In this document: piece by piece, positions 20,578 to 25,216 of the stretch | Layout of the letters: the number at the start of each line of letters is the position of its first letter | How positions within the stretch are numbered: the first letter of the stretch is position 1 | Notes under the pieces: generated by a model | Told to the model about the DNA's origin: nothing | Seen by the model: the letters and a program-made list of their open reading frames with translations, nothing else | The model's database searches: none | Made by a program: the position numbers and the translations under genes | Origin: Terriglobia bacterium | GTDB taxonomy: Bacteria; Acidobacteriota; Thermoanaerobaculia; Thermoanaerobaculales; Thermoanaerobaculaceae | NCBI GenBank assembly: GCA_020073245.1 | Contig: JAIQFQ010000001.1 | Coordinates: 418,001 to 482,000 of the forward strand | DNA: 64,000 nucleotides | Reading direction: 5' to 3'

Positions 20578-22284
20578 CTACCGATGCCTGCGTCGGGGGA
20601 CGCTGATGTCCACGATCCTCCCCTCGGGCCGAACGTCCACACGGTGGAGCCCGACCACGTGGTCCTTCAGGACCTCGTATTCGAGGTCGGGGAGGATCTG
20701 CAGCTCGGAGATGTCGACGCCCATCATCGGCAGCAGCGCCGCGATCGCCTCGTTCACGGTCACCGAGTAGATGCGGTAGGGGTCGAGGCTCTGCCCGTGC
20801 ACGCGGACCGACTCCTGCCGTACCCGAGCACCGGCAACGGCCCTCGGGTCGTACTGAAAGCTCATGCCGGAAACCTGGAGGAAGAAGTCCTCGTTGATCC
20901 CGAGGTAGGCGAGGCCCATCTCCAGGCTTTCGATCAGCTCGGCGCCCGCAATCCGGAGCGTCGCGATCTTGAGGCCGAGGCCGGTCGCGGAGTCGTAGCC
21001 GTACGACACCGGCCGGAAGAGGTCGACCCCGACGATGGGCCCCCTAAATATCCCTTCGTCGATGAGACCGTTCGCGGTGATCGCGATGTCGGTGGAGGTT
21101 CTCGCGCGCAATGCGTCGGTGACGAGGTCGCCCATCGCGCTGTCGCGCTCCGGCCGGTCTGGGTCGGTTACGGTCTCAAGGTCGCAGACGGCGGTGGCGA
21201 GCCTGAGTTTGTAAACGTCGCCGTAGGTGGCGACGATACCCCGCTCGAGGTCGTCCACCACGCTCTGGACCTGCGGCAGCGGCCGCACCCTCTCGTCCAC
21301 GGGCAGCAGCCTGTAGCTCAAGACCCTCACCTTTCCCGCGTCGACCGTGAAGCGCAGCCGCCCGACGTACTCGTAATGTGACCCCGCCTGGAGGATCAGG
21401 GTAGGTCCGCCTTCGGGGTTGGCCACGGCCTCCGGCCGGTCGAAGACATTGTGGTCATGCCCGCCGACAATGATGTCGATGCCGGGGACGTTGGCGGCGA
21501 TCGCCCGATCGTAGAGCACCCCCAGGTGCGAGAGGCAGATCACCACCTCGGCCCCGCTGCGCCGAAGCTCCCCGACCTGTTGCGCCGCGATCCCCATCAG
21601 CACGGTTGGGTCGCCGGCGCCCAGGATCTGCACCGGCGCCGGCATGTTCATCACGTCGTCCGGCACGGTCATCCCGAAGATGCCGATGCGCACGCCCCCA
21701 ACATCCCTGATCAGGGCGGGGCGGATCCAGGTCGTCAACGCCGGGTAGCCGGAAAGGTCGAGGTTCGCCGAGAGCAACGGCAGCGTATCGTCGCCGTACG
21801 CCGCCGTGAGCGAGCCGGCGAGCACGGCCGGCCCGAAGTCGAATTCGTGATTCCCGACCGCCATGGCGTCGAAGCCGAGCTGCCTCATCAGCCGGAGCTC
21901 CGGCACGCCGAAGTACGCGTTGAAGAAGAGGTCGCCGTGGAAGACATCGCCAGCGTGCAGGAGCAGCACGTTGGGCTCCGCGGCGCGCACCCTGGCGATC
22001 ACCGTCGCCGCTTTAGCCATCCCACCGAGGGTGCCCTCGAAATGCCGATCCTTGGGCCCCCAGGCATCGAGGTGCGAGTGGGTGTCGTTGACGTGAAGGA
22101 GCGTGATCGTGGCCGGGCCCGTTCCGAGCGCCGGACAGGCCATGAGCCACGTCGCCGCCACGACCGCCACGGTCAGGCATGACACGACTCGCTGCAACCG
22201 GCCGGCGGCCCGACCGACCGCCTCCACTCTACCCGTCCCTGCCGCTCCGCTCTGTTTCCTTCCGCTGTCGCACTGCCTGTTCAT
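20578..22284 (-). CDS. 5'-nucleotidase/UshA-like metallophosphoesterase
   Basis: 568 aa from ATG 22284, preceded by AAGGAGG at good spacing; the ORF track start at 22368 is weaker. An N-terminal hydrophobic signal (VVSCLTVAVVAATWLMACPALG) is followed by a calcineurin-like metallophosphatase domain: LLHVNDTHSHLD, HAGDVFHGD, VGNHEFDFG, CLSHLG and GGHDHNVF bind the two metals. The C-terminal 5'-nucleotidase domain runs from about residue 350 (AMGDLVTDALRA, NGLIDEGIFRGPI). The precise substrate is unknown; a periplasmic nucleotide- or sugar-phosphate-hydrolysing role is likely. Confidence 0.93.
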   Translation of the reverse strand: MNRQCDSGRKQSGAAGTGRVEAVGRAAGRLQRVVSCLTVAVVAATWLMACPALGTGPATITLLHVNDTHSHLDAWGPKDRHFEGTLGGMAKAATVIARVRAAEPNVLLLHAGDVFHGDLFFNAYFGVPELRLMRQLGFDAMAVGNHEFDFGPAVLAGSLTAAYGDDTLPLLSANLDLSGYPALTTWIRPALIRDVGGVRIGIFGMTVPDDVMNMPAPVQILGAGDPTVLMGIAAQQVGELRRSGAEVVICLSHLGVLYDRAIAANVPGIDIIVGGHDHNVFDRPEAVANPEGGPTLILQAGSHYEYVGRLRFTVDAGKVRVLSYRLLPVDERVRPLPQVQSVVDDLERGIVATYGDVYKLRLATAVCDLETVTDPDRPERDSAMGDLVTDALRARTSTDIAITANGLIDEGIFRGPIVGVDLFRPVSYGYDSATGLGLKIATLRIAGAELIESLEMGLAYLGINEDFFLQVSGMSFQYDPRAVAGARVRQESVRVHGQSLDPYRIYSVTVNEAIAALLPMMGVDISELQILPDLEYEVLKDHVVGLHRVDVRPEGRIVDISVPRRRHR

Positions 22285-22390
22285 CGCCCGAATCCTCCTT
22301 GTCTCGCTACACAGCCTCTCTTGAATTGGGCCGCGCCGCCCACAGCTACGATGCGGAGAAGCAGCCATGTCTCCCGCCTTCGCTCTGTGC

Positions 22391-22492
22391 TCATTCCCCC
22401 GGCCGTGGCGGCGGCGCTCCTGGGGGGACCAGCGCCATTACCAGCACGGACACCGCTACGATGACGAGCAGCACGAGTACCCCTGCATTCAC
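22391..22492 (-). CDS. 33-aa single-pass membrane peptide (not in ORF track)
   Basis: Reads MNAGVLVLLVIVAVSVLVMA then a proline-rich tail ending RPGE, from a GTG at 22492 to TGA at 22391-22393. The ribosome-binding site AGGGAGGA lies about 6 bp before the GTG. About 20 uninterrupted hydrophobic residues make one membrane helix. It lies between the lipoprotein gene and the nucleotidase gene on the same strand, so it could be part of that operon. No family recognised. Its short length makes chance a real alternative; the strong Shine-Dalgarno and sharp hydrophobic segment favour a real gene. Confidence 0.5.
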   Translation of the reverse strand: MNAGVLVLLVIVAVSVLVMALVPPGAPPPRPGE

Positions 22493-22554
22493 CGTTTCCT
22501 CCCTTCTCGACCACGCCCAGAACGAGCGCTATCTGCGTTGACGCTGGCTCGCGA

Positions 22555-23094
22555 TCAATGGAACGAAAGGCCCGCGAGCGGCTCCCAACTCTGAAGCGCC
22601 CGGTAGCCGATGTAGGAAGCCGCGCCGATCACGACTGCGCCACCGATCGCAGCCCGAGCCCAGCTCTTCCTAGCGTCTTTGACCACCACGTCCACCACCG
22701 TCGTCTGGCCGGAGCGAATTACCAACGGCTTTTCCTGCACGCGCGATGGCGCGCCCATGTTTGGGGGCTTCGCAGACCATCGGACCCGAACCACGTACCG
22801 GCCAGGGGCCAGATCGGAGGCCGACCAGCGCGACACCGGGTCCTCGCGGATCAGTTCCTGCGAGCGGGATACGTCCCGGTACAATTCAGTGAGGACCTTG
22901 CGGTTCGAAACGACGTCCCGATGCAGATCGGACCAGTTTTCGAAGACCCGCACCTCGAGCGCGCCACCATCTGAGTCGCCACCGGCACCGGTGTTCCGCT
23001 TCACGTAGACCCCGCTCGCGCAGCCGACGCACCAGGGCGTCAACACGACGAGCAACCCCACGGTCACCTGCTTGTTTGAAACCCGACCTCGCAT
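22555..23094 (-). CDS. lipoprotein of unknown function with C-terminal membrane segment
   Basis: 179 aa, ATG 23094 with AAAGGAGG upstream. The signal ends in the lipobox CVGC (residues 22-25). The middle (LAPGRYVVRVRWSAKP, PLVIRSGQTTVVDVVV) looks like a PEGA/carboxypeptidase-regulatory-like beta-sandwich. Residues 150-168 (AAIGGAVVIGAASYIGYRA) are hydrophobic enough to enter a membrane. Divergent from the CadC-type regulator, with a 214-bp shared control region; it is a plausible target of that regulator. Exact role unknown. Confidence 0.8.
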   Translation of the reverse strand: MRGRVSNKQVTVGLLVVLTPWCVGCASGVYVKRNTGAGGDSDGGALEVRVFENWSDLHRDVVSNRKVLTELYRDVSRSQELIREDPVSRWSASDLAPGRYVVRVRWSAKPPNMGAPSRVQEKPLVIRSGQTTVVDVVVKDARKSWARAAIGGAVVIGAASYIGYRALQSWEPLAGLSFH

Positions 23095-23264
23095 CGCCGA
23101 CCTCCTTTCGCCCCGGCCCCACTCGCTCCTCGGGGTCTCTCACCACCCAGACTCGTCTCCGGCCGGGGGCGCGCCCTGATAAGGGCCTCACGGACAGGTG
23201 AAGGTTCGGCAACGGTGGGGCAACATTTTGAGAAACCCGTTCTTTCCAGAAGATGTTTGTTTGG

Positions 23265-23293
23265 TTGAAAATGGAGATGAGCAGGGTTATCTT
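23265..23293 (+). promoter_or_regulatory. sigma-70-type promoter for the CadC-like gene
   Basis: TTGAAA (23265-23270), 17-bp spacer, TATCTT (23288-23293) in a locally AT-rich stretch that stands out from the GC-rich surroundings. Predicted transcription start near 23300, giving a leader of only about 9 nt before the ATG at 23309. Confidence 0.6.
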
Positions 23294-23308
23294 GGTCCGA
23301 GAGCCCAG

Positions 23309-25216
23309 ATGAACGGGAATCGCGACCGCGAAGTGTACCGGGTCGGTGACCTCACGCTCGACGTCGAGACCAGGCTCCTGACACGTGCCGGAACGCTTGT
23401 GCCGCTGCCGCCCAAGACGTTCGAGCTTCTCGTCGAGCTTGTCCGCCGCTCTCCCGGAGTCGTCCGTCGCCAGGAGCTGCTCGACACCGTCTGGGCGCAC
23501 GAGTTGGTCAACGACGAGGCGCTGACGCAGAGGGTGATGCTCCTGCGGCGCGCTCTCGGCGACGACCCAAAAGAGCCGAAGTTCATCGCCTCGGCGCCCA
23601 GGTGGGGATACCGCCTGGTGGCCCCGGTCGAGCGCCTCGAACCCACGCCGTCGCACCCCGTGGCCTCGACTCGGCGAGAGGACGCCCCTGGGAGCAACGA
23701 CCGCCTGCGAGTGCTGCTGGCGACCACGCGCTCGAGGTCCCGCCGGCTGGTCTGGCTCTCCGCCATCCTCGTGGTCGCCGTCGCCACGCTGGTCGGGACC
23801 CTCGCCCTCCAGAATCGCCGCCACGCCATCGACTCACTCGCGATCGCTCCCTTCCGTGCCATCGAAGGCAGCGGGAGCGAGGTCGAGTACCTGTGCGACG
23901 GCATCCCCGAGACACTCAACAGGACCCTGAGGTCGGCGGTACCCGGCCTCCGGATCATCGCCGAGAGCTCGATGGCACGGTACAAGGGTGCGCAGGCCGA
24001 CCCGCAGAGGATCCGCCACGATTTCGGCGTTCGCGCGGTGCTCACCGGAACGCTGCTCCGGCGCGCCGACAAGCTGGTGATCGACACCGTGCTGGCGGAC
24101 GCCCAGGACGGGACGCAGCTGTGGGATGCGCACACCGAGCGCCCCGTCGCGGACCTCCTCGCCGTTCAGGACGAGATCTCGCAGGAGATCGTGAAGGGGC
24201 TGCGTATCCGGCTCTCTGGGACAGAACGCACCCGTCTTGCGAGGCGCCCGACGGAGAGCGTCGAGGCCTACACCCTCTACCTCAAGGGCCGGTACTTCTG
24301 GGACAAGCGGAACGAGAAGGGGTTTGAAGACGCGATCGCGTGCTTCAAGGCCGCGATCGACCAGGACCCCGCGTACGCCCTCGCCTACGCCGGCCTCGCG
24401 GACTGTTACGCCATCGAGAGCACGATTGAGTACGGCGCGGCCGCAGCCAACGAGGCCATGCCCAGGGCGCGGGCCCTCGCCAGGAAGGCCCTCGTGATCG
24501 ACGCGGATCTCGCGGAGGCGCACGCATCGCTCGGCCTCGTCCTCTGGCTGTACGACTGGGACCGGGCCGGCGCCGAGCGCGAGTTGCGCCGCGCCGCCAG
24601 GTTGGACCGCAACTGCTCCCAGGCTCTGCAATGGCTCGCCGAGATGCTCGCCGAGCAAGGACGGTCGGAAGAGGCGGACGAGGAGATCCGGCGGGCCATC
24701 GAGGTCGACCCACTCTCCCTCGTGATCAACGCGGACCGGGGGTTGTTCGCGTACTACCAGCGCGACTATGAGCCGGCGGTCCAGTACTACCGCCAGACGC
24801 TTGCGATGGAACCGAGCTTTGGCCAGGCCTGGCTCGGACTCGGCCTCGCGTATGCGCAGCAGGGGGAGCACGAAAAAGCGATCGAAGCCGTGAGGCACCT
24901 CTACAGCCTCGCCCCGATAACGCCCGTCATGGCGGCGCTCGGATACGTCAACGGCATGGCCGGCAAGAAGGATGAGGCTCGCAATATGCTCGACGAGCTC
25001 CTGGCGCTCGCCAAGCGGCGCTACGTTTCCAGCTACTACGTCGCCGGCGTGTTCATCGGGCTCGGGGATCGCGACCGTGCCTTCGAGTGGCTCGGCCGCG
25101 CAGGCGACGAGCGGGCGAGCCTGCTGGGGTCGCTCAGGGTCGATCCCGCCTTCGACCCGCTGCAGAGCGACCCGCGTTTTGCGGTGCTGCTCGCCCGCGT
25201 AGGCCTCGCCAAGTAG
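23309..25216 (+). CDS. CadC-type winged-helix membrane regulator with TPR sensor
   Basis: 635 aa from ATG 23309; the GTG at 23198 in the track would lie upstream of the predicted promoter. Residues about 10-105 are an OmpR/CadC winged-helix domain (PLPPKTFELLVELVRRSPGVV, SAPRWGYRLV). One transmembrane helix follows (LVWLSAILVVAVATLVGTLAL), then a TolB/FlgO-like domain (SLAIAPFRAIEG) and at least seven TPR-like repeats to the C-terminus. Such proteins bind DNA from the inner membrane and sense through the periplasmic part. Targets may include the divergent lipoprotein gene. Confidence 0.92.
   Translation: MNGNRDREVYRVGDLTLDVETRLLTRAGTLVPLPPKTFELLVELVRRSPGVVRRQELLDTVWAHELVNDEALTQRVMLLRRALGDDPKEPKFIASAPRWGYRLVAPVERLEPTPSHPVASTRREDAPGSNDRLRVLLATTRSRSRRLVWLSAILVVAVATLVGTLALQNRRHAIDSLAIAPFRAIEGSGSEVEYLCDGIPETLNRTLRSAVPGLRIIAESSMARYKGAQADPQRIRHDFGVRAVLTGTLLRRADKLVIDTVLADAQDGTQLWDAHTERPVADLLAVQDEISQEIVKGLRIRLSGTERTRLARRPTESVEAYTLYLKGRYFWDKRNEKGFEDAIACFKAAIDQDPAYALAYAGLADCYAIESTIEYGAAAANEAMPRARALARKALVIDADLAEAHASLGLVLWLYDWDRAGAERELRRAARLDRNCSQALQWLAEMLAEQGRSEEADEEIRRAIEVDPLSLVINADRGLFAYYQRDYEPAVQYYRQTLAMEPSFGQAWLGLGLAYAQQGEHEKAIEAVRHLYSLAPITPVMAALGYVNGMAGKKDEARNMLDELLALAKRRYVSSYYVAGVFIGLGDRDRAFEWLGRAGDERASLLGSLRVDPAFDPLQSDPRFAVLLARVGLAK

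Follow-up and report, generated by a model that had tools for sequence, protein, structure and literature searches.

Does the 269-nt gap between a lipoprotein gene and a nucleotidase gene in an acidobacterial genome hold a further, very small gene, and what could its product do there? Within the window, that is, the whole 64-kb stretch of DNA analysed here, a preliminary description had pointed to a GTG-initiated frame of 33 aa with a strong ribosome-binding site and had placed it between these two genes on the same strand. Both statements proved correct: the frame (hereafter sORF) and its two neighbors are all encoded on the minus strand, which had not been specified (Table 1), and the GGAGG core of a Shine-Dalgarno (SD) site lies 5 nt from the GTG. 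In reverse complement the start region reads ...AGAAGGGAGGAAACG-GTG AAT GCA..., the encoded peptide is (M)NAGVLVLLVIVAVSVLVMALVPPGAPPPRPGE, and the frame ends with a TGA at 22393-22391.

Table 1. Features at the sORF locus, in window coordinates.
Feature	Position	Strand	Remarks
5'-nucleotidase family protein (Metallophos + 5_nucleotid_C)	20578..22284	-	568 aa when counted from the ATG at 22284, which follows an SD
37-codon frame MSTERRRETWLLLRIVAVGGAAQFKRGCVARQGGFGR, candidate	22281..22394	-	ATGA overlaps at both ends, with the sORF stop (by its ATG) and with the nucleotidase ATG (by its TGA)
sORF	22391..22492	-	GTG start, 33 aa; predicted single transmembrane (TM) helix, then PP and a variable tail; homologs, codon test, helix model
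SD site AGGGAGGA	22497..22504	-	before the sORF GTG
Lipoprotein gene	22555..23094	-	directly upstream of the sORF; stop 62 nt before the sORF start
Divergent regulator	23198..25216	+	Trans_reg_C DNA-binding domain, likely TM segment (by inspection), TPR repeats

A rare combination of ribosome-binding site and hydrophobic segment

The stretch of about 20 hydrophobic residues noted earlier was recovered as a predicted helix of 19 residues (positions 3-21) with a Kyte-Doolittle mean of 3.23. When both strands of the 64-kb window were scanned for ORFs of 20-70 aa that follow an SD and reach a mean of at least 2.2 on the Kyte-Doolittle scale over 19 residues, the sORF was the only one to pass, and no ORF combining SD and TM segment appeared in 5000 dinucleotide shuffles of the lipoprotein-nucleotidase gap or in 10 shuffles of the entire window. 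The hydrophobicity is absent from the opposite (+) strand of the same interval. The peptide has no match among the curated families of Pfam, NCBIfam and PHROGs and no solved relative among PDB sequences (best E 3). A search of Rfam gave two sub-threshold matches and no RNA element that would account for the conservation described below; a scan between the genes for promoters and terminators, weak evidence in itself, found no terminator.

Conservation within the genus

The closest named relatives of the window are Acidobacteria metagenome-assembled genomes. Among the genomes of the same genus that were compared, two retain the lipoprotein and the nucleotidase gene: G001 (FW104_bin.1) and G003 (palsa_272). 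The sORF is present in both (MSATAVLAVLTVAVAVLVMALVPPVQRSQGRGRVAQGGAR in G001, MNATAVLLLMAVVVLAMALVPPGPRFRRPGMTVQKRCEPQKGGCGQ in G003), with an ATG start and a strong SD, and begins 61 nt (G001) or 62 nt (G003, as in the window) after the lipoprotein stop. The absence from close relatives with both neighbors that, by the preliminary description, would have refuted the gene was thus not observed within the genus. When the window peptide alone was searched against the whole six-frame translated genomes, the syntenic sORF was the best match in each (E 0.0038 in G003, 0.027 in G001), and by the same kind of query the sORF is single copy. Among the three sequences nucleotide identity amounts to 0.67-0.81 in SD and core, compared with 0.44-0.57 in the spacer before and 0.40-0.65 in the tail; the SD and the 24-codon core thus appear as an island of conservation. 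Third codon positions hold the most differences (27 of 57), and the core contains a single indel, a 6-nt gap that keeps the frame. BLOSUM similarity of the core lay above neutral simulation in all six directed comparisons of a codon test (reached by 12 to 160 of 5000 simulations), these comparisons sharing sequences and hence not being independent. The tail had been described as proline-rich: its PP is present and conserved, whereas proline-richness beyond the PP is not.

The sORF is very probably a real gene and would represent an apparently unnamed family of small proteins, since frame, SD and position are conserved, amino-acid change is milder than neutral, the indel is in frame, and 4-nt overlaps with adjacent genes occur (see below). 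As far as sequence comparison can tell, synteny, SD, codon test, the scan with its shuffles and the conservation island give good support to the earlier proposal of a genuine gene for a small membrane protein.

Distribution in Acidobacteria

A fourth copy, the frame MTCAVVLVILVVAGLLGAALFPPRVDPFRPSRRPR, is found in another genus, in genome G010 (NC_groundwater_1577), where its start overlaps the stop codon of the gene for a paralogous lipoprotein (lipoprotein 2). The window peptide matches it weakly in the six-frame genome (E 0.755), yet this is the best match there, and homology to the window sORF, judged from the sequences, is probable. The same genome has a closer lipoprotein ortholog without an sORF. 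At one of its loci (contig C91, 14074-20868) two lipoprotein paralogs occur together, and the sORF accompanies the more diverged one.

Four of the 149 genomes of the class carry the sORF, namely the window genome, G001, G003 and G010, all of them with the lipoprotein. Close lipoprotein orthologs (E <1e-70) were found among the 149 genomes in these four and in G023, a member of another family. G023 keeps lipoprotein and nucleotidase and has no such frame in the gap, from which it follows that the sORF is not essential to them; it is the only genome retaining both flanking genes in which the frame is absent. No sORF was seen upstream of the nucleotidase in Acidobacteria that have a close relative of this gene and no such lipoprotein nearby (loci L074, L075, L076 and L081), and a phylum sample of 396 genomes yielded no additional member. 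With a permissive cut-off of E up to 1, a profile search returned hits from 43 genomes, most of them short and weak; we counted as members the four at E <1e-12 (next best 0.005) and left out the others. The profile was built from these four, whose own E-values are therefore given by construction, and absence elsewhere is the informative part. In its distribution the sORF thus follows the lipoprotein, as an optional companion, and not the nucleotidase. The family, four sequences only and all from metagenome-assembled genomes, appears to be narrow, confined to a few related soil and groundwater Acidobacteria.

Predicted helix and membrane topology

Modelled alone, the peptide forms the helix at residues 3-21 with a pLDDT of 89.5, and it falls within the size range of small membrane proteins (up to about 50 aa with one hydrophobic segment of 15-30 residues). 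The product is very probably a single-pass inner-membrane protein. Net charge before the PP is 0 in all four members, while the tail carries +4 in G001, +5 in G003, +4 in G010 and 0 in the window; tail and total length differ among members (33, 40, 46 and 35 aa). Because charges are missing before the helix and the tails are basic in three of the four members, the positive-inside rule favors a topology in which the protein would insert with its N terminus out and its C terminus in.

The family is new, but small membrane proteins with one helix are already well known. YohP (27 aa) and YkgR (33 aa) of E. coli, single-TM proteins described as stress-associated (PMC7549839), resemble the sORF product in size and in consisting of one hydrophobic helix and little more; the sORF lies in a presumed lipoprotein operon, and the comparison was made through curated families only, without a match.

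The lipoprotein as candidate partner

In all four genomes the gene directly upstream of the sORF encodes the lipoprotein. Its model is a beta-sandwich resembling CnaB/transthyretin-like domains (Foldseek E 4e-4 to 1e-2, low TM-scores), with a C-terminal helix at residues 141-168, likely TM, for which the model has low confidence (pLDDT about 50). In distant members of the lipoprotein family (loci L006 and L008-L013) a single chain holds the beta domain, a TM helix, a proline-rich linker and, as a last part missing from the window lipoprotein, an Ig-like (Big_5-like) domain. G001, G003, G010 and G023 likewise have a gene for a similar regulator in divergent orientation to the lipoprotein gene.

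Overlaps of 4 nt (ATGA) link lipoprotein 2 to the sORF in G010, the sORF to the next gene in G001, and the sORF to the nucleotidase gene in G003. Short gene overlaps couple translation and are enriched among genes for subunits of one complex (PMC10666635; also PMC6728339). Given a downstream ATGA start, a matching overlap has a chance of about 0.25 in G001 and 0.12 in G003, and because such chance occurrence is not rare, we treat the overlaps as supportive only.

We consider it fairly probable, and the best explanation overall, that the sORF encodes a one-helix accessory subunit of the inner membrane within a lipoprotein operon. The order of this operon would be lipoprotein, small protein, in some genomes a gene for a further secreted protein, and nucleotidase, adjoined by a divergent ToxR/CadC-like TPR regulator. 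The small protein would be made together with the lipoprotein, its helix would pack against the lipoprotein's C-terminal helix, and it would in this way act as a small accessory subunit stabilising the lipoprotein or its complex in the inner membrane. That the lipoprotein is the partner is suggested by gene order and overlaps, and we put this at a little short of an even chance; the linkage is constant in the four genomes with the sORF, though in G023 the lipoprotein lacks this companion. CydX, KdpF and AcrZ are small accessory subunits of membrane complexes, and the genes of the first two lie in the same operon as the partner gene. The sORF product shares with all three the single helix and, with CydX and KdpF, the presumed location in a partner operon; it differs in that its partner is deduced from gene order and would be a CnaB/transthyretin-like lipoprotein, not a transporter or oxidase.

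A bolder version, which we regard as quite unlikely, sees in the two proteins a two-helix unit of the inner membrane: a doubly anchored lipoprotein, with lipid at the N terminus, a TM helix at the C terminus and the CnaB/transthyretin-like domain between them, would need a dedicated one-helix partner, their ratio would be fixed by translational coupling, and the divergent membrane-bound TPR regulator would control both. If this is true, some Acidobacteria would have a small module of their own for envelope sensing.

The constant link to the lipoprotein provides a concrete candidate partner for the small protein. The sORF adds an apparently unnamed family in a phylum whose small proteins have been little studied, and a strong SD, a TM segment and synteny suffice to detect such genes in metagenome-assembled genomes.

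Alternative explanations

Translation of the sORF might matter in itself, the frame delivering ribosomes to the next gene by termination-reinitiation and the peptide being of no use, an idea known from leader genes (PMC4833913). In G001 and G003 the sORF meets the following gene in an ATGA, which would suit this, as would the arrangement in the window, where the sORF stop forms the ATGA opening of the 37-codon frame, which itself ends in ATGA on the nucleotidase start. The frame resembles such leaders in being short and, in some relatives, in having its stop at the following start codon; it differs from them by its conserved amino-acid core, by having a strong SD and by the presence of another gene upstream in the presumed operon. 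The nucleotidase gene moreover keeps an SD of its own, and in G010 about 70 nt separate the sORF from the gene after it; the distance to the nucleotidase in the window is 106 nt. Conservation beyond neutral expectation is seen in the amino-acid core and not in the tail, where the junction lies, which speaks against a mere leader role; we hold such a role to be unlikely.

The preliminary description had suggested a regulator of membrane enzymes, by implication of the nucleotidase. Such a protein would act in the manner of AcrZ, MgtS or CydX on a partner encoded nearby. The nucleotidase gene is indeed near the sORF and on the same strand in all four genomes, and in G003 the sORF ends on its start codon. 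Its position varies, however, with an extra gene between the two in G001 and with the nucleotidase upstream, not downstream, in G010; the four loci with a close nucleotidase relative and no such lipoprotein nearby have no sORF, and the enzyme, which by inspection has only an N-terminal signal-like stretch, looks secreted, not integral. We found nothing that specifically supports this role, the constant neighbor being the lipoprotein (4/4), and consider it quite unlikely.

Peptides that perturb the membrane, such as type I toxin-like or stress peptides, are small and hydrophobic, and the sORF lies within their typical range in both respects. Such a function is nevertheless very unlikely for a single-copy frame that belongs to a presumed operon, has a strong SD and is joined to neighbors by ATGA overlaps, and for which Rfam gave no match suggestive of an antisense RNA. 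It is highly improbable that the sORF is an untranslated chance frame of a GC-rich spacer, as might be argued from its shortness, its being known from sequence alone and its absence from G023, given the shuffles (0/5000) and the joint conservation of frame, SD, position and codon pattern. Least credible of all is a TM-PP piece detached from the lipoprotein, for although distant lipoprotein members read TM, proline-rich linker and Ig-like domain (weak Big_5 match), a C-terminal helix is present in the window lipoprotein itself (in a low-confidence model), and the peptide query (E up to 10) misses the long lipoprotein paralogs of the window genome, G001, G003 and G010; an origin by fission within the lipoprotein family found no support.

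Genes and sequences following the sORF

The 37-codon frame, which has no Pfam match, could be a second small gene, the remnant of a lost gene, or a product of chance. G001 carries in its place a gene for a 171-aa protein, of which no homolog was found in the window genome. Secreted-looking proteins of 171-186 aa, without Pfam match, are encoded after the sORF in G001 (locus L073, 3397-3912) and G010 (locus L048, 5695-6255). They are alike in size and signal peptide but show no BLASTP similarity (E 0.40), and we did not retain them as one family.

The nucleotidase ORF as listed starts at 22368; the start that is conserved in relatives and preceded by an SD is the one given in Table 1. About 40 nt just before this start (22285-22325 on the minus strand) look alike by eye in the window, G001 and G003, which exceeds what an SD would need and is perhaps a regulatory leader.
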